A DNA stretch of 64,000 nucleotides from contig CAIIXF020000011.1 in NCBI GenBank assembly GCA_903813345.2, positions 30,372,166 to 30,436,165 of the forward strand, given 5' to 3'. Position 1 is the first letter of the stretch. Each line of letters starts with the position of its first letter. This document shows positions 3,154-63,400 of the stretch, piece by piece. The notes under the pieces were generated by a model that was not told the DNA's origin, did not search any database, and saw nothing but the letters and a program-made list of their open reading frames with translations. The position numbers were made by a program, and so were the translations under genes. The DNA comes from Owenia fusiformis (taxonomy: Eukaryota > Annelida > Polychaeta > Sabellida > Oweniidae).

Positions 3154-3480
3154 TGAACCGCGAGCACGGATCTCTGTGCGCGAGTGAAGAAATCCCGGGG
3201 GAGAAATATGTTCGGGAGCGAGGAAATGGTGGTGCGCGACTAAAGATTTCACGTTCGTGATGTGAGAATCGTAATTCGAGTACAAGGGACGTAGTTCGCG
3301 AGGTAAGAACTAATGTTCGCGTTGATGATAGTCTAGGAGGCCTGTCTTTTGTATGACTCAAACTAACGGTTGAGAACTAGTCTGGTGTTATCACGGGGCG
3401 GGGGGGGGGAGGGGGTTCGCTTGACCACTTAACCATAGACATTGAGATTGAAGACATCAATTCATTTAACATATACATAA
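3154..3480. repeat. CpG-rich degenerate short repeats and a G tract
   Basis: Between about 3150 and 3330, variants of a (G/C)GTTCG(C/T)GA(G/T)GT(A/G)AGAA motif recur about every 20-35 bases. The stretch is CpG-rich against a CpG-poor background. A long G tract follows near 3398-3412. It is open in places on both strands, but no protein is recognised. Confidence 0.4.
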
Positions 3481-6449: not shown

Positions 6450-6805
6450 AACCTACCCTATGTATGCACGGGTTATTTACGGGTGTGTAGGCGTTAATTA
6501 CGCCCGTGCAGACGTGAAATAACGCCCGTGCAGACGTGTAGGCGTTAATTACGCCCGTGTAGGCGTTAATTACGCCCGTGTAGGCATTAATTACGCCCGT
6601 TAAGAAGTGAATTCTATACGCGTTAAAACAAACACAGGCGTAAACTAACGGCGTTAAAATGTTCAATAGCGGGCGTTAAGACATGAAAAGCATCCATACG
6701 CCCGTCGAGTTCATTTAGCGCCGTGAATTATGAACCAATCAGCATCTTGCTTACATAATGAAACAAAGCATTCTAGCTAAAAGTGCAACTCCAAGATCAT
6801 TGTGC
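6450..6805. repeat. Left arm of a 4.4-kb inverted-repeat structure
   Basis: This arm is the diverged reverse complement of 10480-10825 over about 350 bp; shared blocks include GATGCTGATTGGTTCATAA and CTAAAAG(T/A)GCAACTCCAAG on the rc strand. It carries a 21-base tandem motif (ACGCCCGTGTAGGCGTTAATT) several times between 6500 and 6605. It is rich in ACGCCCGT, which is exceptional for the region. Confidence 0.7.
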
Positions 6806-6959
6806 AAGTTAATAACATACTCACGATTGTGCCAGGAACAACTATTGCAATTTATGGCATATGAAACATTATTTCTTTTCTGGGTTTCTTGGTGCACTAT
6901 TTGTACAAATGTGAAAGATGTACATGTGACTCTAACAGACTTGCCAACCTAAAATGAAA

Positions 6960-8639: not shown

Positions 8640-10205
8640 AGATACTATTAGTATCTGAACACATCCTTTAGATTGTATTGTATCCTTTATTACCACATTA
8701 TTTTATGTGAGTACATTACAATGTTCAATATATTTTTTTTCAAACATATTTACATCAACAGGTTGCGTTTTTTATACATAAAATAAATTGCCTTGGCTTT
8801 AAAATCATATTAAAATCATCATCCTCTTTAAAAATCTGGAGTACATTATCTTCTCCCATTTTAAAAAGGGCTAGTAGAGCTACCCTTTCAGCATCTAGAG
8901 AGCTACAAAATATAGTAAAATGTTCTAATGTCTCAATCTCGCCGGAATTACATATAAGGCATTTTTTATTGCCCCATTTATTGTTTCCATTCAATGTTTG
9001 GTTTGTTAAGAGCTTAACCATAAGTTTAAAATACATGCATTTATCAGGATATCACAGTACCCGCCAGATTAGTGGTTTAAATGAACATCATATTCGAATA
9101 TACAAATGGGTAGAATGTTTCAAAGTACAGTTAATCATTAAGTTAAGTTTCTGAGTGTATCTTACCCGTCCTAATACTAATTTGTGCCACTCTGATTTTG
9201 AGGGATAAATACCAGTGTTTAACATGTTTTTGCCGTGTCCAACAAATTGAACCTTATCAGAGTATTCCAAATCGTATGACTAGGAGATACAACTCCGATG
9301 TTACTATTATGCTCTAATTCGGTGGCTCGAAATATGAAGATTTGTTTGTACTATTTTTGATTGGCAATTTCATTAGCATTAAGAAAAACATCAGTTTATC
9401 TATTACAATTCTGAATTCTAAATTCAACCAACCCAGAGGCTCGGTGGCAAATATGTTGTCTGAGAATTTTGGTAGGCATTGAATACGCTTACCAATTGTT
9501 CTATGTGCTAATTCAAGTTTTTCTATGTCCCTGCCTGAGTATGTTATTAAAGGGCTTCCATATAGCATCGTAGGAACAGAAATTGCCCAATACAGTCGTG
9601 ATGCTGTTAAAGGACAAAGTCCCCCACAGTTACCACCCAACCCGAGGAGTGAATATTATTTCCGTTTACCTGAGCTTATAGCATTGTCATTCTCAATAAA
9701 ATCAGTAATGTCACCGTTAACTGATAATGGTATACCTACATGTATTTGTTTCCGAACAACATTAACATTTCTATTACCAATTTTAAACACTGGTTCCACT
9801 GCATGATGTCTAACACCATAAATCATTATATTGCATTTGCCAGGATGAATCTCATATCTCCATTTCATACTGTGATTATAAGCTAAATTAAGTAATGTAT
9901 TCATAGATGTCGTACTAGTAGTAAGAAAAGAGGTATCGTCGGCATATGCAGGACAGGTGACATCCATTTCCCCCAACGATGCACCTATGCCCAGGGCTTG
10001 TAAATCAGTTAGTAAGTCAGCATTGAACAATTGGTACATCAGCATGGAATAGACCCCACCTTGATGGACCCCCTGGAGTACATCGAATGGATCAGACAGC
10101 ATGTTACTTACTCGCAGGGATACATTAGCGATTAGAGGGATACATTAGCGATCTGACTGTATAGTGCTTTGTAAGCTGCAATGCGTGTGAGCTTAAGTAC
10201 CTACC
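8640..10205 (-). pseudogene. 5'-truncated LINE: reverse transcriptase C-terminal half and zinc knuckle
   Basis: Read on the minus strand, it starts in the palm (ALYSQIANVS near 10160). It continues through VLQGVHQGG, a catalytic YADD (residues 53-56 of the frame 10102-9656) and KWRYEIHPGKCNIMIYG, then the thumb (VPTMLYGSPLITYS, LELAHRTIGKRIQ) in the same frame after one TAA at 9656-9658. A frameshift follows between 9314 and 9270 and another stop near 9085. The C-terminal CLICNSGEIETLEHF...C knuckle (9036-8755) is typical of non-LTR retrotransposons. The N-terminal RT, endonuclease and ORF1 are missing. The 3' tail runs to about 8640 with ATACAATACAAT-like sequence. The copy is inactive; I do not assign a clade. 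Confidence 0.9.
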
Positions 10206-10479
10206 CCTGAAGCCGACACCTAGATTGGAGAATTATCCAAAAATCATCGTATTAAGAAACCAAACATGTATACCTTCTCAAAATATACTGCAATTTTGTC
10301 GTTTCTACAATGGGTGTTGATAACTGCCGACATAGTACATGTATCTTCAATTTGCCTTTTAATTTGCTATAAAAATTGAATACTTTTTTGGTTAAGTCTA
10401 ACAATCTTGAACGAATATTTAAGGACCTCGATGCAATACACTAAAATGTTATCGGGCTTCTGATTGTTATTTACTTACG

Positions 10480-10825
10480 CAAGGATCTTGGAGTTGCTCT
10501 TTTAGCAAGGATGCATTGAATCATTATGTAAAGTAAGGTGCTGATTGGTTCATAATTTACGGCGCTAAAAATAAACTCGACGGGCGTGAAGATGTTTCTC
10601 AACGCGTGTAGAATAACCAGCTTAACGCCCGTAATTAATTAATTTAACGCCGTAAGTTTACGCCCGTAAATGTTGTTTGAACGCCCGTAGAATTTACTTC
10701 TTCACGGGCGTAATTTACGCCTACACAGGCATAATTTACGTCTGCACGGGCGTAATTTTAAATCTGCACGAGCGTAATTAACGCCTACACACACGTGCAT
10801 TCTTTGGGCGGGTAAGCCAACCATA
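10480..10825. repeat. Right arm of the 4.4-kb inverted-repeat structure
   Basis: It is the diverged reverse complement of 6450-6805, with the same ACGGGCGTAATTTACGCC tandem motifs. Between the two arms lie the 6936-8461 element and the LINE relic. Subtracting these leaves about 1.3 kb, the size of a typical non-autonomous element. Confidence 0.7.
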
Positions 10826-13921: not shown

Positions 13922-13992
13922 TACCCTTTGCATTCGTTTGACTTCACTTCTTTAAAGAGAGCTTCGTTTAACTAGACTCTGCACGCAGGGTA
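13922..13992. mobile_element. 71-bp MITE, copy 1
   Basis: TACCCTTTGCATTCG...TGCACGCAGGGTA, with five matching terminal bases (TACCC/GGGTA) and a weakly palindromic body. It is flanked by 9-base direct repeats ATGTTTACC (13913-13921) and ATGTTTGCC (13993-14001). A 9-bp duplication is typical of Mutator-like elements; the superfamily is inferred. Confidence 0.75.
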
Positions 13993-14249: not shown

Positions 14250-14320
14250 TACCCTTTGCATTCGTTTGACTTCACTTCTTAAAAGAGAGCTTCGTTTAAC
14301 TAGACTCTGCACGCAGGGTA
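14250..14320. mobile_element. 71-bp MITE, copy 2 (array duplicate of copy 1)
   Basis: Nearly identical to 13922-13992, with the same flanking 9-mers at 14241-14249 and 14321-14329. It is therefore a copy made by tandem duplication of the array, not a second insertion. Confidence 0.75.
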
Positions 14321-21033: not shown

Positions 21034-22463
21034 ACGTTAAAACATTGAGGTTTTATCTAACCAGTAAGACTCTCATAAAAACATTTTTTGCAGATATGAC
21101 TCTATTCCTCTCATATTATTGATCACCCAAATGTTTTTCTGATTCATTGGGATGTGAAATTAAATCCTTTGAGTACCATCTTCGAGCATTCTAAGATATT
21201 AGACTGTAGTGTTAGATAAGTTTTATTTCATTCTCCCCGCCGTTAATGTATACTCGGGGTGGAAAATTTTCTAAGAGGCTCCGTTAAGGAAAAAATGACT
21301 TTATGAGCTGGATGGAATTTCTGTGTATTTTTTATTCTATTAGGGTGTCCTGCATAAGGGATTTCGCCTGCGAAGCATATAACTCTTGCGAACATATCTA
21401 AATACTGGTCCGAAGAAGACATACCTTGAATTTTTTTAGAAAAAAATTGGCTAAAAATGAAAACTACAAGAAATCAAAATGTTCAACTCAAACAAAGTTG
21501 TAGCTATTCTATATCAATATTTTGTGTTATGTAAGGTTTCTCAGATGTTTCAAGACCTTCATTAGTATACTTGTGTCTAGAAATGTGACATTTAAGGACA
21601 AATTTTGGCATTTTTAATCATTTTCGCTTTCAGCATGAACATATAGTTCCTTATATCTCGAGTTTAATGCTGACTGGTTGGTGAATTTTTGATTAAATCT
21701 GTGCTTGTACATGTGTTCTTCCATTTAAGGTATAGAAAATGTATAGTGGACAACCAATGTTTGTATGAGAGCTTTCAGATCTCCCCTACCCCATTTATTT
21801 TGGAAAATTACCGAAAAATATGAAAAAATAAAATAACTTGAAATTATAAACTTTAACAAAGTTGTAGCTATTCTATGTCAATATTATGTGTTATTTAATG
21901 TTTTTAAGATTTTTCAGAATTTTTATTGGTATTCAAGTGGCTAGAAATGAGACATTTAAGGACAAAACTTGGCATTTTTTTTATCATTTTCACTTTCAGC
22001 AGTAATATATAGTTCCTCATATCTTGAGTTTTATGCTGTCTGATTGTTGCATTTTCAATCAAATCTGTTCTTGTGCATGTCTTCTTCCATTTAAGGTATA
22101 GAAAATGTATAGTAGACAAACAATGTTCATATTAGAGCTTTCAGATCTCCCCTACCCCATCAATTATTGAAAATAAACGAGAAATATGAAAAAATAAAAT
22201 AACTTAAAATTATAGACTTTCATAAAGTTGTAGCTATTCTATATCAATATTATGTGTTATTTAATGTTTTTAAGATTTTTCAGATCTTTTATTGGTATTC
22301 AAGTGGCTAGAAATGAGACATTTAAGGACAAAACTTGGCATTTTTTAATCAATGCTGCTTTCAGCAGTAACATATAGATCCTCATATCTTGAGTTTTATG
22401 CTGACTGGTTGATGCATTTTTGATTAAATCTGTTCTTGTACATGTCTTATTCCATTTAAGGTA

Positions 22464-23243
22464 CCGTATTCTCTGTAATTACCGCCCACTCTCTAATAAG
22501 CGCCCACCCCGCTTCACAAAGTTCAAGAAACATCGAGGAATCAACAAGAATTGAAGAATATATCAGGAAAATTTTTTTTCTCAAAATCCAGGAGCGGGCG
22601 ATAATAGAGTACTTACCCTAAAACTGCTGTAAACACGACGCGTTTTGTAATTCTATGCATCCTCTCGATACATATCTATCGATGGGTGCTTCCCACACCA
22701 TACCATGCTAATATTGTCTCCAAATAGTCCATAATGAATGAAGGAATTGTTCTTTATCGGCATTCAGAAATTTCAAAAGCTACTGCGCAGATGTTCTGCG
22801 CATGTCAAGGTCGTGAACTTTCTGGTTTCTTTTTAATGTTTCTCGACTTTTACACGACTTTTGCACGAATAATGATGATCTCTCATCAAATTAGAAATAA
22901 TGTATAACTTTAGATCGATATCCAGCAGTCTCTAGTGGAAATATTGAAGGTAATCGGCGATAATGACAAAGTGGGCGTGCCGGAAATAAATTAGACATAG
23001 ACGGGTCTTCAACCACTGTCAATATTGTCTAAGCGATCTTTACCGTATTCTCTCCAATAACAGCACTTGTCATATTATTATAAAAATATGTTGAAGAAAA
23101 TGCATTCTTGTCAAGAAAAATTGCCATACATGAAATTCCTCGGGATTTCTGATTTCTTTCATATATGGGCGCTTATTAGAATGGTCTAAATAATGTATTT
23201 TCAATTTTCTAAACGCCCTGGGCGCTAATTACAGAGAATACGG
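22464..23243. mobile_element. 780-bp MITE nested in the left arm, TA target duplication
   Basis: CCGTATTCTCTGTAATTA and its exact reverse complement bound the insert, with TA at 22462-22463 and 23244-23245. Sister subrepeats read straight across the site (AAGGTATAGAAAATG), proving the insertion point. A second CCGTATTCTCT terminus at 23043 faces the same way as the left end, so the insert itself may be composite. Both ends carry GCGCCC-type motifs. Tc1/mariner superfamily is inferred from the TA. Confidence 0.85.
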
Positions 23244-23442
23244 TACTGAAAATGTATAGTGGACAAACAATGTTCATATTAGAGCTTCCAAATCTCCCCT
23301 ACCCCATTTATTAGGGAAGATGACTGGAAAATATAAAAAATAACTTCAAACTACCAGTATAAACTTTAACAAAGATGTAGCTATTCTTTATGTCTTATTG
23401 ATTGCTATAATTAATGTTTCAGGACCTTCATTAGTATACTAG

Positions 23443-23528
23443 TACCCTTTGCATTCGTTTGACTTCACTTCTTAAAAGAGAGCTTCGTCTTTGTCTTCGT
23501 AGTTTAACTAGACTCTGCACGCAGGGTA
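23443..23528. mobile_element. 86-bp MITE, third copy of the TACCC...GGGTA family
   Basis: Same ends and body as 13922-13992, with about 15 extra bases (TCTTTGTCTTCGTAG) inside. It is flanked by GTATACTAG at 23434-23442 and 23529-23537, an exact 9-bp duplication. Sister subrepeats show the empty site (TTAGTATACTTGTGTC). Confidence 0.8.
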
Positions 23529-23890
23529 GTATACTAGTGTCGAGAAATGCATTTAAGAACAAAATTTGGCATTTTTCATCAATTTTTCATCATTTTCACT
23601 TTTAGCAATAACATATAGTTCCTTATATCTTGAGTTTTATGCTGATTGGTTGATGGATTCTTGATCATATCTGTTCTTTTGCCTGCCTTCTTTGATTTAA
23701 GGTATTTAAAAATGTATATTGGAAAGCCTGTCATTATATTAGAGCTTACATATCTCCCCTACCCCATTTATTTTGAAAAAATAACCAGAAATATAAAGAC
23801 CAAACAATTTCAAAGTATAGACTTTGTCTATATTGTCGCTATTCTAGATCAACTATTTATTGTTTGATGTTTTTCAGATGTTTCAGGAAC

Positions 23891-24400
23891 TTCATGAGTA
23901 TACAAGTCTAAAAATTAGACACTTAAAGTTAAGTTGCAATTGGGGCGGGTATTCTCTATCTTTTTCCATTGGGCTTTTCTGGTAATGATACGTTGCAAAC
24001 TGCTCATGAAGCGATGCAATGTATAGTATAACACTTGGAATATATTTAAAAGTAATGGGTTCATGAGTATACAAGTCTAAAAATTAGACATTTAAAGTTG
24101 AGTTGCAATTGGGGCGGGTATTCTCTATCTTTTTCCATTGGGCTTTTCTGGTAATGATACGTTGCAAACTGCTCATGAAGCGATGCAATGTATAGTACAA
24201 CACTTGGAATATATTTAAAAGTAATGGGTTCATGAGTATACAAGTCTAAAAATTAGACATTTAAAGTATAGTTGCAATTGGGGCGGGTATTCTCTATCTT
24301 TTTCCATTGGGCTTTTCTGGTAATGATACGTTGCAAACTGCTCATGTATCGATGCAATGTATAGTACAACACTTGGAATATATTTAAAAGTATTGGGGTA
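23891..24400. repeat. Three tandem copies of a 169-bp unit
   Basis: Units start near 23891, 24060 and 24229 and are about 95% alike (TTCATGAGTATACAAGTCTA...). The unit fuses the tail of an arm subrepeat with the 5' part of the central gene relic, so the triplication happened within the element. The last copy runs into the open frame at 24357. Confidence 0.9.
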
Positions 24401-24900
24401 TAGTACTGTGATAATTATAACCAGTGATCAAGCCATATTGGTTGAATTCGCTCATTATCAATTGCAAGGTTGTCAAAGGCTTGGTGATTTCCATATTACA
24501 CTTAAGGGTGGGAAGTTCATGATGGATATTGGGCTTGGGGATATTTTGGTAAATGCAAACATTGTGAAATGAAGAACAGCCAACAAGATGATTTTGGAAA
24601 GAATTACAAAATGGTAAGCTGTCTTTGGTTTGTGAAGCAATGTTACTGTATCTCTAAAATGGGATGAATTTCACTTATGGCTGTGCTGCTATTGAACTTT
24701 GCAAAACTGATAGTTGCAACTTATAGACAATCTATCAAATACTGATCATGAAGAAGTTGACACTCTCCTTATGGTCCATGTCTATTACAGTGCTGCAGAC
24801 AAGACAAAGGAGTTCAATTTAGAGAGAATTTGTATTCAGTCTGATGATACAGAATGTTGGTTGCGAAGAAGGATGAGAGTTAAAAATAGCTTTTAAAGTT
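24357..24900 (+). pseudogene. Degraded gene of the 'DQAI...LGxFH...HEEADT' family in the foldback core
   Basis: Two frames carry ordered family motifs. 24357-24572 has MYSTTLGIYLKVLGYS, IITSDQAILVEFA, RLGDFHI and GLGDILVNANIV. 24714-24896 has NTDHEEVDTLLMVHVY and ICIQSDDTE. I recognise this order (an ITxDQAIY block, LGGFHxxM, GLxDxLVEA, then HEEADTRxLLH and a DTDV-like block) from a multicopy uncharacterised protein group of cnidarians, molluscs and other invertebrates. Its function is unknown to me. Between the blocks the frame breaks several times, so the copy is dead. Its place at the centre of a foldback element is the interesting part. Confidence 0.55.
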
Positions 24901-25739
24901 TCTTATGTCCTTCAAGGTAGCATTCTAAATTACTATATGAATCTCAAAGTGCAATACCTATTTGAAGATATATCAAAGATGGGTGTCTTGTACCAGTACT
25001 CACAAACAAACCTTCGTAGCAACACAAGAAACATATGTCCTTGGCAATTCGCAAATATAAAATGACAAAAGGCAGCAAATTGCAAATACAAAGTTTCTAG
25101 TCAAGGGTGTGTTGCTACTTGTCCATGTGGCAATAAACAACATAGTGCACATCGTTGGACAATATTATAGGATGAGTTTCTCAGAACTATAAAAGTTATT
25201 TAGAGATCTTACATATCTGAATATATAGCTTGTGGTGTCATGAGCATCTTAGACCTTTAAAATGACTTAAATGCAGCTCTCACATAGAACCAGGGAGATT
25301 TGAAAAATCAGGCTGTTGCTGGATTAAGTTCGAGAGTTGTGAACAATCATCTTTATACAAGTATATAGACATATCCTTTGATTCATATGAGAGTAAACTG
25401 TGAAATTACAAAATTATTTCGCACTATTCTATTTTTGAGTAATCTTTTAAAAATATGGTAGTGTAGTAATTTTATCTCTAATAAGTATATTTGAAACACA
25501 TTTCCATGCTTTGAAGATAACAAGACACATAATTAAATATATATGATCTAAAATATGTCAACTAATCACCATTCAACTAAGTATATAAACAACTAGTGCT
25601 GAAAGTGAAAAATAGGTCACTTTGCCCATTTATGTGTCATTTTTTGATTTTAGTGTGCCGATAAATGTGCTAAACTTTTGAAAAGTTTAAGAATATTAAC
25701 TTGCAATAACAACATTTGTGTTGGTTTTCTTATTAAATG
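24901..25739. other. Core of the foldback element, no clear coding
   Basis: Probably further decayed gene sequence (for example around 24900-25320), but I find no reliable motif. Confidence 0.4.
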
Positions 25740-27665
25740 TTGGAGGGCAGATCTTAGACCTCTAATAAGAACATTCGCTGTCTTACATACATTTTTATTT
25801 AACTTAAATCAAAGAAGACAGATTCAATAAAAAACATATATGAATCTATCATCAAAGAATTATAATTGTGGAAAATAATATGCTACTGCTAAATGCAGAA
25901 TGCTAAAAATGCCAAATTTTAGACACATGTAATCAAATGAAGGTTACATTAAATAATAATACATAGTATTCATAGAGAATAGCTACAATTTTATAAAGTT
26001 TATGATTTGAAATTACTTTTTCATTTACATTATAAATGGGGCAGGGGAGACATGAAAGCTCTAATATCAACAATATGTCCAATATACATTTTTTATATCC
26101 TAAATGGAAGAAGACATGTACAAGAACAGATCTGACCAAGAATGCACCAACCAGTCAGCATAAAACTCAAGATATAGGGACCTATACGTTATTGCTGAAA
26201 GCGAAAATGAAAAGTTTTGTCCTTAAATATCTCATTTCTAGGCATTAGAATATTAATGAGGGTCCTGAAACATCAGAAAAAGATTAAATGATGCATAGTA
26301 TTGACATAGAATAGGTACAACTTTGTAAAAGTTCATAATTTGAAGTAATTTACTTTTTATTAATATTTTCTGGTCATTTTTCCTAATAAATGGGGTAGGG
26401 GAGATATGAAAGCTCTAATATGAACATTGGTCATCTACTATACATTTTTTATATCTTAAATGAAAGAAAACATCTACATGAACAAATTTGACTAAGAATG
26501 CACCAACCAGTCCGCATTAAACTCAAGATATAAGGAACTATATGTTATTGCTGAAAGCGAAAATGGTAAAAAATGTCAAGTTTTGTCCTTAAATGTCTCA
26601 TTTCTGGGCACTAGTTTACCAATAAAGGTTCTGAAATATCTGAAAAACATAAATCAATACATAATATTGATATAGAATAGCTACAACTTTATTAAAGTTT
26701 ATAGTTTCAAGTTATTTTATATTTTCATATTTTTCTTATAATTTTTCATTATAAATGGGGTAGGGGAGATCTGAAAGCTCTAATATGAACATTGTTTGTC
26801 CACTATACATTTTCTATACCTTAAATGGAAGAAGACATGTACAAAAACAGATTGGATTAAAATTGCAACAACCAGTAAACATAAAACTCAATATATGAGG
26901 AACTATATATTACTGCTGAAAGCTAAAATGATTTTAAAAAATGCCAAGTATTGTCCTTAAATGTCTCATTTCTAGGCACTAGTATACCAAAAAAGGTTCT
27001 GAAATATCTGAAAAACATAAATTAATACATAATATTGATATAGAATAGCTACAACATTGTTTAAGTTTATAAATTCAAGTTATTTTACATTTTCATATGT
27101 TTCAGTAATTTTTCATAATAAATGGGGTAGGGGAGATCTGAAAGCTCTAATATGACCATTGGTGGTCCAATATACATTTTTTGTATCTTAAATGGAAGAA
27201 GACATGTACAAGAACAGATTTGAACAAAATTGCAACAACCAGTCAACATTAAACTCAAGATATAAGGAACTATATGTTACTGCTGAAAGCGAAAATGATC
27301 AAAAATGCCAAATTTTGTCCTTAATTATCTTATTTCTAGACACTAGTACATTAATGAAAGTCCTTAAACATCTGAAAAACATTAAATAATACATAGTGTT
27401 AATATTAAATAGCTAGAGTTTTGTTTGAGTTGAACATTTTGACTTTTTGTAGTTTCCATTTTTAGCCAATTTTTTCTAAAAAATTCAAGGTATGTCTTCT
27501 TCGGACCAATATTTGGATATGTTCGCAAGAGTTATATGCTTCGCAGGCGAAATCCCTTATGCAGGAAACCCTAATAGAGTGAAAAATACAGAGAAACTCC
27601 ATCCAGCTCACAAAGTCATTTTTTGCACAATTCTCACACCTTCCACCCCGAGTAGTAATGGATGG
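25740..27665. repeat. Right arm of the foldback element: about four and a half subrepeats, inverted
   Basis: It carries the same blocks as the left arm in reverse complement (ATGGGGTAGGGGAGAT and ATAGAATAGCTACAAC recur at about 360-base spacing near 26330, 26690 and 27050). No nested MITE is present here, so this arm preserves the uninterrupted unit. Confidence 0.85.
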
Positions 27666-52111: not shown

Positions 52112-53212
52112 CAAACTTTTGGAGGGGAGTGTAAAGACAGTTCGTAAAGATAGTTACAAAACTTGTGGAGAGGAGTGTAAAGACAATTCGTAAAGATAGA
52201 TACAAAACTTGTGGAGAGGAGTGTAAAGACAATTCGTAAAGATAGTTACAAAACTTGTAGAGGGGAGTGTAAAGACAATTCGCAAAGATGGTTACAAAAC
52301 TTGTGGAGGGGAGTGTAAAGACAATTCGTAAAATAGGTTGCAGAACTTGTGGAGGGAAGTGTAAAGACAATTCGTAAAGATAGTTACAAAACTTGTGGAG
52401 AGAAGTGTAAAGACAATTCGTAAAGATAGTTACAAAGCTTGTGGAGGTTAGTGTAAAGACAATTCGTAAAGATAGTTACAAAACTTGTGGAGGGAAGTGT
52501 AAAGACAATTCGTAAAGATAGTTACAAAACTTGTGGAGGGAAGTGTAAAGACAATTCGTAAAGATAGTTACAAAACTTGTGGAGGGGAGTGTAAAGACAA
52601 TTCGTAAAGATAGTTACAAAACTTGTGGAGGGGAGTGTAAAGACAATTTGTAAAGATAGTTACAAAACTTGTGGAGGGGAGTGTAAAGACAATTCGTAAA
52701 GATGGTTGCAAAACTTGTGGAGGTTAGTGTAAAGACAATTCGTAAAGATAGTTACAAAACTTGTGGAGGGAAGTGTAAAGACAATTCGTAAAGATAGTTA
52801 CAAAACTTGTGGAGGGGAGTGTAAAGACAATTCGTAGATAGTTACAAAACTTGTGGAGGGGAGTGTAAAGACAATTCGTAAAGATAGTTACAAAACTTGT
52901 GGAGAGGAGTGTAAAGACAATTCGTAAAGATAGTTACAAAACTTGTGGAGGGGAGTGTAAAGACAATTCGTAAAGATAGTTACAAAACTTGTGGAGGGGA
53001 GTGTAAAGACAATTCGTAAAGATAGTTACAAAACTTGTGGAGAGGAGTGTAAAGACAATTTGTAAAGATAGTTACAAAACTTGTGGAGGGGAGTGTACAG
53101 ACAATTCGCAAAGATGGTTACAAAACTTGTGGAGGGGAGTGTCACAAAGACAATTCGTAAAGATGGTTACAAAACTTGTGGAGGGAAGTGTAAAGACAAT
53201 TCCCAAAGATAG
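52112..53212. repeat. 46-bp tandem array, about 24 copies
   Basis: The unit is AGTTACAAAACTTGTGGAGG plus GGAGTGTAAAGACAATTCGTAAAGAT. Copies vary mostly at GGGGAGT/GGGAAGT/GAGGAGT/GGTTAGT and occasional AAGAT indels. A block of units around GGTTAGT is repeated (52440 and 52720), pointing to multi-unit duplication. Open frames through it are by-products. Confidence 0.95.
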
Positions 53213-54179
53213 TATCACACTAATCACTTATGAAGTGTGTGTTTTACTTGGAGATGAGTCTATTGGTGAAAACAATATAAGGAGCTTAGGTCTCAACTGC
53301 ACGCGTTAAACCAATAACATCATATTAAACTCAAACTATCAAGTCCATTTTGTGATTGACTTTTCTGAACGAAATCTAACTAACGTGTTTAATCAGGGAA
53401 TTAAACAGAATCCCAAGGGACTTGAATCTATATAAGGTACACATAAGTTGATTACGTTGTACCCAAGAGGGGAGAGGCTAGATATCAAAGTACACCAGCT
53501 CACTTGGTTTAAGCTAGCGTGAAATTATCTGACGGTTTCTGACATCATGGATTTCAATTGTCACACAATATTAGGTTCATTTGTCCATCTTAGATCTTCA
53601 TTAGTGTTGTGGAAGTAGCATATCAAAAATATGGATGTGTAAAATGTGTTTTATATCTTAGGTTGTTGAAACTAGCCCAGTGATGACCTTTGTAATTAGT
53701 TTTCAGCGATTGGCACACTTTAAAATTCAAATGTATATCTTTTCAAACTCAGAGGAGGAGATTTTCCAAAGTTTAAAGTTGGAGCATAAAAGTTGCCATC
53801 AAGGTCACGTGACAGACTAGTAGGTCACACGATAGAGCTATGTATAACAGCATGGCGATCTTTTTGAAATCCAGTAATAGTTTGTACATTAGTTAAATAC
53901 TTAAATGACGATTAAGTTATACGTTGTCAGCTTGAAAGTTGCAAGTTTATGCTGGATATTCGTGCTTTGCACGTTTCCAAACATACTGTAGTCCGCCATT
54001 ATGAATGTAACGTTAGGTCCTTATAAGGCTTGTAGGACCATATAGGGATTCATGAATATTAATCAATGGCAATCAATGGCAAATATTTATGAGAGCTACA
54101 CACTTCTTCTGCCTCCAACTCAAACATATTTGTTTCTAATTCGTAGCACGTGGACCACTAGAATTGGATTAATGTGTAC
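53213..54179. other. No recognisable feature
   Basis: Short open frames only; no repeats recognised by eye. Confidence 0.45.
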
Positions 54180-57094: not shown

Positions 57095-59165
57095 TGAACT
57101 ATTCCTATAATGTGTTCTTGAGATTTTTTCTCATGGACTGTTTTAATCATCTGTTATGATGAACTATTCTAATCATCTGTCATGATGAACTATTCTAATC
57201 TTCTATTATGATGAACTATTCTTATCATCTATTATGATGAACTATTCTCATCATCTATTATGATGAACTATTCTTACCATCTGTTATGATGTCCTATTCT
57301 AATCATCTATTATGATGAACTATTCTTACCATATGTCATGATGTCCTATTCTAATCATCTATTATGATGAACTATTCTTACCATCTGTCATGATGTCCTA
57401 TTCTAATCATCTATTATGATGAACTATTCTATCATCTATTATGATGAACTATTCTAATCATCTATTATGATTAACTATTCTAAGCATCTGTTATGATGAA
57501 CTATTCTAATCATCTATTATGATGAACTGTTCTAATCATCTATTATGATGAACCATTCTAATCATCTATTATGATGAACTATTCCAATCATCTATTATGA
57601 TGAACTATTCTCATCATCTATTATGATGAACTATTCTAATCATCTATTATGATGAACTATTCTAATCATCTATTATGACGAACTATTCTAAGCATCTGTT
57701 ATGATGAACTATTCTAATCATCTATTATGATGAACTGTTCTAATCATCTATTATGATTAACTATTCTAATCATCTGTTATGATGAACTATTCTATCATCT
57801 ATTATGATGAACTATTCTAATCATCTATTATGATGAACTACTCTAATCATCAATTATGATGAACTATTCTAATCATCTATTATGATGAACCATTCTAATC
57901 ATCTATTATGATGAACTATTCCAATCATCTATTATGATGAACTATTCTAATCATCTATTATGATGAACTGTTCTAATCATCTATTATGATGAACTATTCC
58001 AATCATCTATTATCGTGAACTATTCTATCATCTATTATCATGAACTATTCTAATCATCTATAATGATTAACTATTCTAAGCATCTATTATGATGAACTAC
58101 TCTAATCATCAATTATGATGAACTATTCTAATCATCTATTATGATGAACCATTCTAATCATCTATTATGATGAACTATTCCAATCATCTATTATGATGAA
58201 CTATTCTCATCATTTATTATGATGAACTATTCTAATCATCTATTATGATGAACTATTCTAATCATCTATTATGATGAACTATTCTAAGCATCTGTTATGA
58301 TGAACTATTCTAATCATCTATTATGATGAACTGTTCTAATCATCTATTATGATTAACTATTCTAATCATCTGTTATGATGAACTATTCTATCATCTATTA
58401 TGATGAACTATTCTAATCATCTATTATGATGAACTACTCTAATCATCAATTATGATGAACTATTCTAATCATCTATTATGATGAACCATTCTAATCATCT
58501 ATTATGATGAACTATTCCAATCATCTATTATGATGAACTATTCTAATCATCTATTATGATGAACTATTCTAATCATCTATTATGATGAACTATTCCAATC
58601 ATCTATTATCATGAACTATTCTAATCATCTATTATGATGAACTATTCTAATCATCTGTTATGATGAACTATTCTAATCATCTATTATGATGAACTATTCT
58701 AATCATCTATTATGATGAACTATTCTAATCATCTATTTTGATGAACTATTCTTATCATCTGTTATGATGAACTATTCTAATCATCTGTCATGATGAACTA
58801 TTCTAATCATCTATTATGATGAACTATTCTTACCATCTGTTATGATGAACTATTCTAATCATCTATTATGATGAACTATTCTCATCATCTGTTCTGATGA
58901 ACTATTCTAATCATCTATTATGATGAACTATTCTTATCATCTGTTATGATGAACTATTCTAATCATCTATTATGATGAACTATTCTAAGCATCTGTTATG
59001 ATGAACTATTCTAATCATCTATTATGATGAACTGTTCTAATCATCTATTATGATTAACTATTCTAATCATCTGTTATGATGAACTATTCTAATCATCTAT
59101 TATGATGAACTATTCTAATCGTCTGTTATGATAAAGAACTATTTTAATCATCTGTAATGATGATC
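57095..59165. repeat. 26-bp satellite-like array, ~80 copies with higher-order blocks
   Basis: The unit is GATGAACTATTCTAATCATC plus TATTAT. Variants (AAGCATCTG, GAACTACTC...CATCAATT, ATTCCAATC, GATTAACTATT, a 25-base ATTCTATCATC form) recur in the same order in several blocks of about 10-20 units, for example near 57775, 58050 and 58380. TCATC...GATGA pairs within each unit. The left edge units use GATGTCC in place of GATGAAC. Confidence 0.95.
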
Positions 59166-61595
59166 TATTCTGATAATTTAGTCTGGTGATTTATTGCAGT
59201 AACTATATGTCAATGGTCTCTTTTGCTGAACTATTGTGACGATTTATTGTGATGATCTCTTCCGATGATGTATTCAAATGAAATATTCTGACAAACTATA
59301 CTGATGAACGCTATCAGATAACTGCAAATTAGCTAACCGGCATAGCCACCGGCAGTCGCGTATCAAGAGTCAGAATGTCAGAAGGGATATTTTGAAGGAC
59401 AACACTATTACCTGTAACTTACTTGCTCTAATAATAGCCTGTCTGTTTGTCGTGTCTGCCTGTTGTTTGAGAGAAATTGAAACTTCAGTGTGAAAAGTGT
59501 CTCATATAAAAGTATTGGTATTTGCTATGGGACTTGTATGTCATTACTGTTTAGTCCAATCGGTTTCATTTTGTGCCAATATATATTCAAATTGAGAATC
59601 CCATTGGACATTCTATGTCTCCCTTCGTGAACAAGGTGATGTAAAACTTAAATTAAATTCGTCAAAGGATCTGAATTATTTAAGGATATAGACAGAGCGT
59701 TCCCCATAGCATGTGTTAACGTGTTCTAAATCTTGATAAAATACATTTTCCTATAGAGCAGATAGCCATTCTAGCAACAAATGTTGAATTGATGTTCCCT
59801 ATTAAGAGATCGTCTATCGGACCTATCCCCATGGGTAGCTTGGAAAGGAATTGCTACAGATTCATTTATAGGGACAGAACAAGACTTTCACCAATTAACT
59901 TGTGATAAATGATGAAAATGCAGCTGGTGCTGTGAGATAATTAGCACGTTAGATCGAACTAGAGAAAATTGCGTTTGAAGTTAATGAGATTTAGATCCCG
60001 GCCTAAAGGAGCAGGTGTAAATAAATTTTCTTCATTCTAGAAGGGATAGAGAGAATTCTTTACGATGTTATTTTCTGGATAAAAATTGAGATATCTGATC
60101 AAATATTTAAATTATTGAAGATTTAAGATACAGAAATGTCAAAATATAAGAGAATTTAAAAAAGAACGCCCACTTTTTCATTTTTGCTAGTTAAGCTTAA
60201 AAATCGATGAATAATCATAATCGTGAAATAAAAGTCAGAACTGTTTGTTCTTAAGAAAATTGTCATGACATTAAATGATAAGAGAAAGATATTGTTAACT
60301 ATCGACATCTTTTCGAAACTTACTCATAGTTAGGTCTCTGTCTCTTTTACGCCCTTTAAAAGCATCACAAACCATGAAACGGGTAATGATAGCTAGTTTT
60401 TTTTAGTTTTTATCTATCGTAACTGGAAATCAAGGAACTATTACAGAGAATTTGTTACACGCCTACTGATATCTTTTTACGAGAGACTGATATTTCAGAT
60501 CTTCTTGGGTGCCCATTTCTCAAAAATAATCACTCTGGCGCATGCGCTAATGGGATAGGCTGCGTAAAAGATTGATGTCGGTCGACCAGGCGCAGGTGGT
60601 ATTTAGATCATATTGCTTCTCAAAGAGACAAAATAGACCTCTTAATTCATTCGATGAGATTCATTCGGAATCGTATGTCGACGTGAAAAGCTACACCAAA
60701 GAAAGATCACTCAATGAAAGCGTATTTTGCTGTCTACCTTGATGAAGATTTCAAACAAGGGGAAATTGAAATTGAAGTTTTACATTTATCATTACAGTAG
60801 GCATTCTCATTTTGAAGTTGCTTGTTATTTTTATGCCTAAAATGGTTTTGCATAAAAAAAACTCAATTGTCCCGTCATTATAAAATACAAAAGCATTGGG
60901 TAGCAACATCAATAACAATATTATACACAATTACAATTATCGTCCAATTTTCACATACACATGGAACGACTTACTTAAATGCATCTATTAGCTCATTGAA
61001 CTTACCGACCCACCATATTAGATTAACAAGTGATACCCTTTTCAGTGAGATCGGATATGGAGAAAATGAGCTTACGAGTGGGTGTAGAACCCTTAAAACT
61101 AAGGATATACACACCCGAGATAAGATGAAAGTCTTACGAGGTGCCACTTTTTTCTGACTCACAAAGTCTTTTATCATAAACCTGACCAGACGTATATTTA
61201 ATTGGTTCAATTAACCTTTACAGAGTCGCTGAAACCGAACAGCTCCCCCTTGGCTGTTTTCATACGTCTCGCCAGGTTTACTTTCGTAATTTGCTTTGAG
61301 ATGGGGCTATAAATTAGCAGTAAAGTGTAACTCTCATCTATTTAGGAAATCACTTACGTGTTAATCCGTAAAAGGATAGAACGAGAGTTTTATGTCTTAG
61401 TATTATTAACAAAGACTTAACGGTGCGGCCTCCTCGCCTAAGCATTACCCATTAGGGAGGATGCTAAAACACTATGGACGTTCCTAGTTACACTTTGATA
61501 GCTTGTAGCTATGGGTGATTGAACAGGGCACTCTGGTATAGGTTGTCAGTGTGAAGTGCCCATTCAAGGTCATGAATATAGAGGCAACAAAAAGT
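59166..61595. other. No supported gene
   Basis: A degenerate tail of the 26-bp motif runs to about 59310. 59398-59493 encodes a hydrophobic run, and 60822-61157 is open for 111 codons without motifs. GGGGCTATAAATTAG at 61304-61318 is TATA-like but leads into no open frame that I can support. Confidence 0.4.
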
Positions 61596-62044: not shown

Positions 62045-63400
62045 TCAGTCACAACCGAGGATTGCTCCAGCCACTTTCAGGGCATTCAGTCAACATTGGG
62101 GATTGCTCCAGCCACTTTCAGGGCATCCAGTCAACATTGGGGATTGCTCCAGCCACTTTCAGGGCATCCAGTCAATATTGAGGATTGCTCCATCTACTGT
62201 CAGGGCATCCGGTCAACATTGGGGATTGCTCCAGCCACTTTCAGGGCATCCAGTCAATATTGAGGATTGCTCCAGCCACTTTCAGGGCATCCGGTCAACA
62301 TTGGGGATTGCTACAGCCACTTTCAGGGCATCCAGTCAACATTGGGGATTGCTCCAGCCACTTTCAGGGCATCCAGTCAACATTTGGGATTGCTCCAGCT
62401 ACTTTCAGGGCATCCAGTCAACATTGGGGATTGCTCCAGCCACTTTCAGGGCATCCAGTCAACATAGGGGATTGTTCCAGCCACTTTCAGGGCATCCAGT
62501 CAATATTGAGGATTGCTCCAGCCACTTTCAGAGCCTCCAGTTAACATTGGGGATTGCTTCAGCCACTTTCAGGGCATCTTGTCAACATTGGGGACTGCTC
62601 AAGCCACTTCCAGGGTATCCAGTCAACATTGGGGATAGCTCCAGCCACTTTCAGGGCATTCAGTCAACATTGGGGATTGCTTCAGCCACTTTCAGGGCAT
62701 CCAGTCAACATTGGGGACTGCTCAAGTCACTTTCAGGGTATCCAGTCAACATTTTGGATAGCTCCAGCCACTTCCAGGGATCCAGTCAACAGTGCACAAT
62801 CTAGGATTGCTCCAGTCACAATCAAGAATTGCTCAAGCGACTTTCAGGGTACCCAGTCAACATTGCGGACTGCTCCAGCCACTTTCAGGGCATCCAGTCA
62901 CAATCAAGAATTGCTCAAGCGACTTTCAGGGTACCCAGTCAACATTGCGGACTGCTCCAGCCACTTTCAGGGCATCCAGTCAATATTGGGGATTGCTCTA
63001 GCCACTTTCAGGGCATCCATTCAATATTGGGGATTGCTCCAGCCACTTTCAGGACATCCAGTCAACATTGGAATTGCTCCAGTCACTCCCAGGTCTTGCT
63101 CTAATCGCAATTGATCAGGAGGACTGCTCTGGTCACTTTCAAGATATCCAGTTTCAATTGAGGATTGCTTCAGCAGCCCCCAGGGAATGCTCCAAGTGCA
63201 ATCAAGAATTGCTTCAGCCACAATTGGAGACTGCACAGTCACTTGTTGGGCATCCAGTCACAGCCGGGGATTGCTCCTGCCACTTTCAGGGCATTAGGTT
63301 ACCATTGGAATTGCTCCTGCCACTTTCAGGGCTTGGTCCAGTCACGGCCGGGGATTGGTTCCGTCACTTTCAGGGCTTACAGCCTCTATTGGGAACTACT
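62045..63400. repeat. 41-bp minisatellite, ~33 copies, open in three forward frames
   Basis: The unit is GGATTGCTCCAGCCACTTTC plus AGGGCATCCAGTCAACATTGG. Copies are most uniform from 62050 to 62760 and then become mixed with CAGTCACAATCAAGAATTGC variants. A two-unit block is duplicated at 62812-62897 and 62898-62980. Since 41 is not a multiple of three, three units give a 41-residue peptide period with no stop in any forward frame, producing apparent proteins of up to 233 residues. I treat these as by-products. Confidence 0.95.

Follow-up and report, generated by a model that had tools for sequence, protein, structure and literature searches.

What kind of mobile element carries long inverted arms of tandem units around the remains of a gene? 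This question is raised by a locus of the annelid Owenia fusiformis (assembly GCA_903813345.2, contig CAIIXF020000011.1, positions 30,372,166 to 30,436,165 of the forward strand). We refer to this whole stretch of 64,000 nucleotides as the window and give all positions within it. The element spans 21251-27654 (6404 bp), is bounded by terminal 14-mers and has the architecture of a Foldback element, with long inverted repeats, an outer domain and internal tandem repeats all present. Long inverted repeats, also repetitive ones, are known from several superfamilies. We consider it probable, with some reserve, that the element is an old, non-autonomous copy of a cut-and-paste DNA transposon from a lineage that encodes a nuclease, most likely AcademX-like, and that its terminal inverted repeats have grown into foldback arms. 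The copy in the window is dead.

Ends and arms of the element

The word TACTCGGGGTGGAA is found in identical form at both extremes of the inverted arms, and the element ends were therefore set at 21251 and 27654. Shared words of at least 14 bases occurred in 0 of 2000 random 90-bp pairs. The ends start with TA. In the following list the terminal words come from end-word comparison, the outer domains from unit mapping and arm alignment, and the units from mapping one unit across the region.

21248-21250: left target site duplication GTA, exact 3 bp; alternative 8-bp reading TTAATGTA/GTAATGGA at 6/8
21251 to ~23926: left arm
21251-21264 (+): left terminal 14-mer
21251-21442 (+): left outer domain
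21443-21610 (+): left terminal half unit (unit positions ~194-366)
21611-21976 (+): tandem unit L1, 366 bp
21977-22341 (+): tandem unit L2
22342-23582 (+): tandem unit L3 with two inserts; unit pieces 22342-22463, 23249-23441 and 23529-23582
23583-23926 (+): tandem unit L4
~25734 to 27654: right arm
25734-25820 (-): unit fragment R5
25946-26205 (-): partial unit R4
26206-26572 (-): tandem unit R3
26573-26939 (-): tandem unit R2
26940-27305 (-): tandem unit R1
27306-27476 (-): right terminal half unit
27477-27654 (-): right outer domain
27641-27654 (-): right terminal 14-mer, identical to the left one
27655-27657: right target site duplication GTA, with the same ambiguity

An earlier reading of the letters alone (the sequence-only reading) had described paired inverted arms at 21243-27665, each made of at least four tandem units of ~360 bp and sharing an outer domain of ~240 bp. 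The element is indeed there, although that span is slightly too long, and the description of the arms is borne out. In a self-comparison 21290-22463 aligns with 27624-26452 at 87.5% over 1176 columns, and 21611-22463 aligns with its inverted partner at 87.4% (851 columns, 4 gap columns). The outer stretch common to both arms shows 90.4% identity over 228 aligned columns (21 gap columns). Tandem Repeats Finder reports arrays with periods of 366 bp (21491-22463) and 367 bp (26024-27415), and each arm consists of a half unit and about four units of ~366 bp: on the left a half unit and four units, one of them split and one slightly short, on the right a half unit, three full units, one partial unit and one fragment.

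Paired units diverge by 12.6% between the arms. The tree of the units, for which L3 was joined from its three pieces, unites L1 and L2 (0.939) and likewise R1 and R2 (0.923); the terminal half units of the two arms form a pair (0.982), and deeper branches are poorly supported. Because of these pairings, the outermost parts of the arms are cognate across the arms and the inner units have been copied within each arm. Cognate pairs are slightly closer to each other (L1/R1 88.3, L2/R2 87.9) than non-cognate ones (L1/R2 86.8, L2/R1 86.0).

Three later changes are superimposed on this layout, the first being an insert resembling a miniature inverted-repeat transposable element (MITE).

22463-23246: MITE-like insert in L3, with 28-bp inverted ends (27/28, flanking GTAC counted) and a TA duplication
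23443-23528: ~86-bp insert in L3, with ends ACCCT..AGGGT and flanking AGTATACTAGT repeats
23891-24397 (+): three 169-bp tandem copies, 96-98% identical, starting within L4 and extending into the core

Both L3 inserts are confined to the left arm, and the 169-bp triplication is a recent amplification across the junction of arm and core. The inverted ends of the MITE-like insert read CCGTATTCTCTGTAATTA..GCGCCC, and an extra copy of the end word lies inside it, near 23041. The tiny ACCCT..AGGGT element of ~70-86 bp, present once in the left arm, has shorter copies at 13922-13992 and 14250-14320, both inside a 62-bp tandem array; its flanks (AGTATACTAGT; ATGTTTRCC) suggest duplications of ~9-11 bp.

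The decayed gene between the arms

The core had been described as containing a decayed gene whose motifs match no transposase familiar to the reader. The decayed gene stands; that the core cannot be placed is not supported, as it matches a protein family in two other contigs. A degenerate DNA motif pattern, run over a genome collection, yielded six loci (L001-L006), four of which (L003-L006) were dropped as chance matches after their reading frames had been considered. L001 (contig JAJRVU010000273.1, from a Planctomycetota bin) carries an open frame of 1466 amino acids that runs into the contig end; its contig stops inside the gene and so shows one side of an element at most. L002 (contig NZ_CAHJWD020000426.1, from an assembly of a Bathymodiolus brooksi symbiont) carries a broken gene that matches the L001 protein with an expect value (E) of 3e-26. 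Both are probably animal transposon DNA within bacterial assemblies, base composition being undecisive. The remains in the core are as follows.

24477-24671 (+): gene relic block 1 (RLGDFH..GLGDILVNANI), matching L001 residues 576-645, but poorly over the second half of the alignment
24744-24854 (+): gene relic block 2 (DHEEVDTLLMVH..ICIQSDDTE), matching L001 residues 1180-1210 and L002
24972-25146 (+): possible Cys-rich C-terminal remains of the same gene (unproven; the shuffle test gave no support)

Of 1000 dinucleotide-shuffled versions of 24390-25260, none did as well as the match of L001 to block 1 or those of L001 and L002 to block 2, each taken by itself. This test used database-fetched sequence only, and L002 was compared for the second block alone. 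The family motif blocks RLG.FH..GL.D and HEEADT..S.DTD are both present in the core, in order, and we regard the core matches as convincing because blocks 1 and 2 are collinear and in the same frame between the arms. Since the blocks are separated by 534 residues in L001 and by 72 bases in the window (570 residues and 177 bases in a shorter alignment), most of the gene between them is lost. Stop codons add to the decay.

We take the core motifs to belong to a family with RLGGFH and HEEADTR. A query composed for this family served as a lead only, the relic having been seen beforehand; its first two blocks match the core (E 4.7e-7 and 0.004) and its third matches best outside the core. The same query had no Pfam match, and none of its pattern matches (24 stretches from genome contigs, 7 from viral ones) was confirmed. 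Pfam searches of seven core pieces and two read-through stretches gave nothing above the cut-off; the sub-threshold matches (E 0.059-0.26) are unrelated to transposases and were judged to be chance.

L002 shows how the gene family can be framed. Its gene relic lies between inverted repeats, with pieces within 86-242 and 3221-3367 (124-150/3313-3339 at 89%, 204-242/3221-3259 at 85%). At their outer ends, 86 and 3367, the repeats carry TAGTAGGGTGCCC, flanked on the outside by exact TTA repeats, and the first 12 bases of this word occur in the 2.4-Mb, partly masked L002 assembly only at the two element ends. Arms and core that never occur together would have spoken against a single element; the gene is seen together with inverted repeats in this relative, an observation that concerns L002 and not the host. 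The ends of the window element and of L002 are weakly alike (TACTCGGGGTGG, TAGTAGGGTGCC).

Further traces of the family were sparse. The L001 protein was found in 1 of 83 and 1 of 170 related genomes, each time the source genome itself, and was absent from plasmids, phages and viral contigs. In the L001 and L002 genomes the L002 inverted repeat matched only itself and the window-type end word was absent; the window arm gave two short matches in one of them, one over 36 query bases (E 2.1e-4) and one over 58 (E 7.1e-4), scores having been computed for 40 of 46 and for 40 of 58 candidates. Viral contigs held no arm or outer-domain words and no degenerate motif patterns, and none of 16 stretches matching the pattern of the relic peptide there was confirmed; plasmids did not contain this peptide. 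The conserved form of the motif was not found within the window. Matches to PDB sequences (three at E 0.12-1.4, one at 1.6) were judged to be chance, and structure predictions for two parts of L001 were of unusable quality (mean pLDDT, the predicted local distance difference test, 34.6 and 35.2).

Weighing the origin of the element

The HEEADT..SPDTD motif presumably resembles the catalytic motifs of XPG/FEN nucleases. It is on this motif resemblance and on the length of the target site duplication, not on an Academ profile or demonstrated membership, that we file the element as AcademX-like, an assignment that seems fairly probable to us. A 3-bp duplication is preferred because of L002, and not because of the window: L002 has an exact 3-bp repeat (TTA) and nothing convincing at 4 to 12 bp. 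Longer flank repeats reach 6/8, 4/9 and 1/10 in the window and 2/8, 0/9 and 4/10 in L002.

Several points weigh against this assignment. The duplication in the window is ambiguous, with a chance of 0.021 for the exact 3 bp versus 0.007 for 8 bp at 6/8 (0.03 over lengths 7-10). XPG_I (PF00867) matched neither the L001 nor the L002 genome at E values up to 10; it did match 6 of 14 control genomes. Pfam matches of L001 are sub-threshold only: DUF6589 (E 0.003), a TcB-binding domain model (0.079) and CXC (1.1). DUF6589 came up again at 19.5 bits (cut-off 27), and one control genome of 14 likewise matched below the cut-off; no mention of it was found in the partly covered literature. When the whole L001 protein is searched against the window, the core matches have E values of only 0.51 and 4.3 (ranks 1 and 3), and the relic blocks were delimited after the matches had been seen. 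The Cys-rich C-terminal block is unsupported, as 904 and 122 of 1000 shuffles were as good and the better of these two matches lies out of order. No tandem units were found in L002. The likeness of its termini to those of the window is weak, being matched by 4-7% of random 12-mers (chance 0.04-0.07), and the remainder of the two inverted repeats does not align convincingly. A single copy of the element was seen.

Among the alternatives, a true Mutator-superfamily Foldback, like Tetris or Tm1, whose core took up an unrelated transposon gene fragment fares best, although we think it unlikely. The build is Tetris-like, with flanking domain, arm tandem units and a middle part (known systems are taken here and below from excerpts of the publications), and an 8-bp duplication is possible at 6/8. 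However, no MULE-domain match was obtained in the seven core pieces, the two read-through stretches or L001, the relic being short and L001 only a relative, and the inverted repeats that frame the same gene family in L002 are flanked by an exact 3-bp repeat and by no convincing 8-bp one. A THAP or P-type Pfam match was likewise missing from the core and L001, where the relic is short and the N terminus of L001, the position of THAP, is cut by the contig end. The element had been called FB/TU-like. This holds for its foldback build, with outer domain, tandem units and gene relic, and probably not for descent, because searches of L001, the near-complete relative, revealed neither a Mutator nor a P-element domain.

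Less likely still is a reading in which arms and gene come from a different superfamily whose ends are TA..TA, be it IS3EU or one without a name, with the gene family as a separate undescribed transposase. The ends starting with TA would fit the TA..TA ends of IS3EU, XPG_I is unmatched, and membership in Academ is unproven; on the other hand IS3EU duplications are usually 6 bp, and no integrase-type match is among the three weak matches of L001. That the locus might not be a transposon, but rather an inverted array of satellite DNA or a product of misassembly, with unrelated DNA in the middle, is very improbable: the units by themselves are satellite-like and a single copy has been seen, but an identical 14-mer stands at both arm ends, the terminal half units pair across the arms, and a misjoin was rejected as very unlikely because the arms have diverged (12.6% between paired units) and the left arm carries private inserts.

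We suggest, more tentatively than the AcademX-like assignment itself, that foldback arms might have arisen independently in this nuclease-encoding, AcademX-like lineage outside Mutator and P; the satellite-like units of ~366 bp would offer the transposase arrays of sites and would also give rise to satellite DNA of the host. By analogy with Galileo, the transposase of full-length copies would bind not only the outer domain but also the repeated units, which would serve as additional sites. This protein would synapse both ends and move the element, leaving a short (3-bp) target duplication, and a nuclease-like part of the same protein would process the ends. The arms probably lengthen and shorten by unequal exchange or slippage inside one arm. 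Unit binding, catalysis, the role of the nuclease and the length of the target duplication are steps that we infer. If true, a lineage that encodes a nuclease and has tandem-unit arms would strengthen the case for convergence and favour the view that the units are added transposase sites. As has been proposed for Tetris, arms of this kind may also be a route by which satellite DNA arises from transposons, and the two relic blocks may allow the core gene family to be traced in other animal genomes.

Other repeats of the window and known foldback systems

Elsewhere in the window, remains of a reverse transcriptase are found at 9656-10144 (-) (RVT_1, E 2.5e-9). They lie, together with tandem arrays, inside an inverted pair (6479-6817 / 10465-10796; 73.7% over 361 columns) that spans ~4.3 kb overall and has 21-bp tandem subrepeats in each arm; possibly this is another composite-ended element. 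Further tandem arrays have periods of 46 bp (52113-53213), 26 bp (57133-59171, about 78 copies) and 41 bp (62059-63087; this array can be read through as a repeated peptide). Neither an Rfam search nor a tRNA scan of the window found anything.

Foldback elements have mostly been assigned to Mutator, with Galileo (P superfamily) as an exception (PMC4079207, PMC3688188). The nearest in build is Tetris of Drosophila virilis, which has an outer flanking domain, a variable number of ~220-bp tandem units and a variable non-coding middle (PMC4079207), in the same order as the element in the window. Tetris differs in its 8-10 bp duplications and is placed in Mutator by its authors, whereas the element described here has ~366-bp units and a relic without a Mutator signature. 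Tm1 of nematodes (Mutator/Foldback) also has composite arms with internal repeats (PMC3169594), but these are repeats of a ~14-bp motif, the duplications are mostly 9 bp, and a MULE domain is present. Galileo shares long, internally repetitive arms outside Mutator, and its tandem arm units carry extra THAP binding sites for the transposase (PMC3688188); unlike Galileo, with its P-type transposase and THAP domain, neither the window core nor L001 had a detectable domain of this kind.

AcademX elements encode a nuclease and produce target duplications of 3 or 4 bp (PMC10045372), and Academ elements, with a mean length of 5565 bp, have expanded strongly in bivalves (PMC10294476). The 3-bp reading of the duplication is in keeping with AcademX, and the 6404 bp of the element are similar to the Academ mean. 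As a difference, the excerpts mention no tandem-unit arms for AcademX, and none were found for Academ among the literature matches listed (titles and abstract openings, with partial coverage). The sequence-only reading had considered an undescribed or poorly described class of elements, should intact relatives exist; 'undescribed' is too strong, and AcademX-like DNA transposons are the likely, though not proven, home. With an architecture described mostly for other transposon families, the element is better seen as an unusual variant than as a new kind of element.

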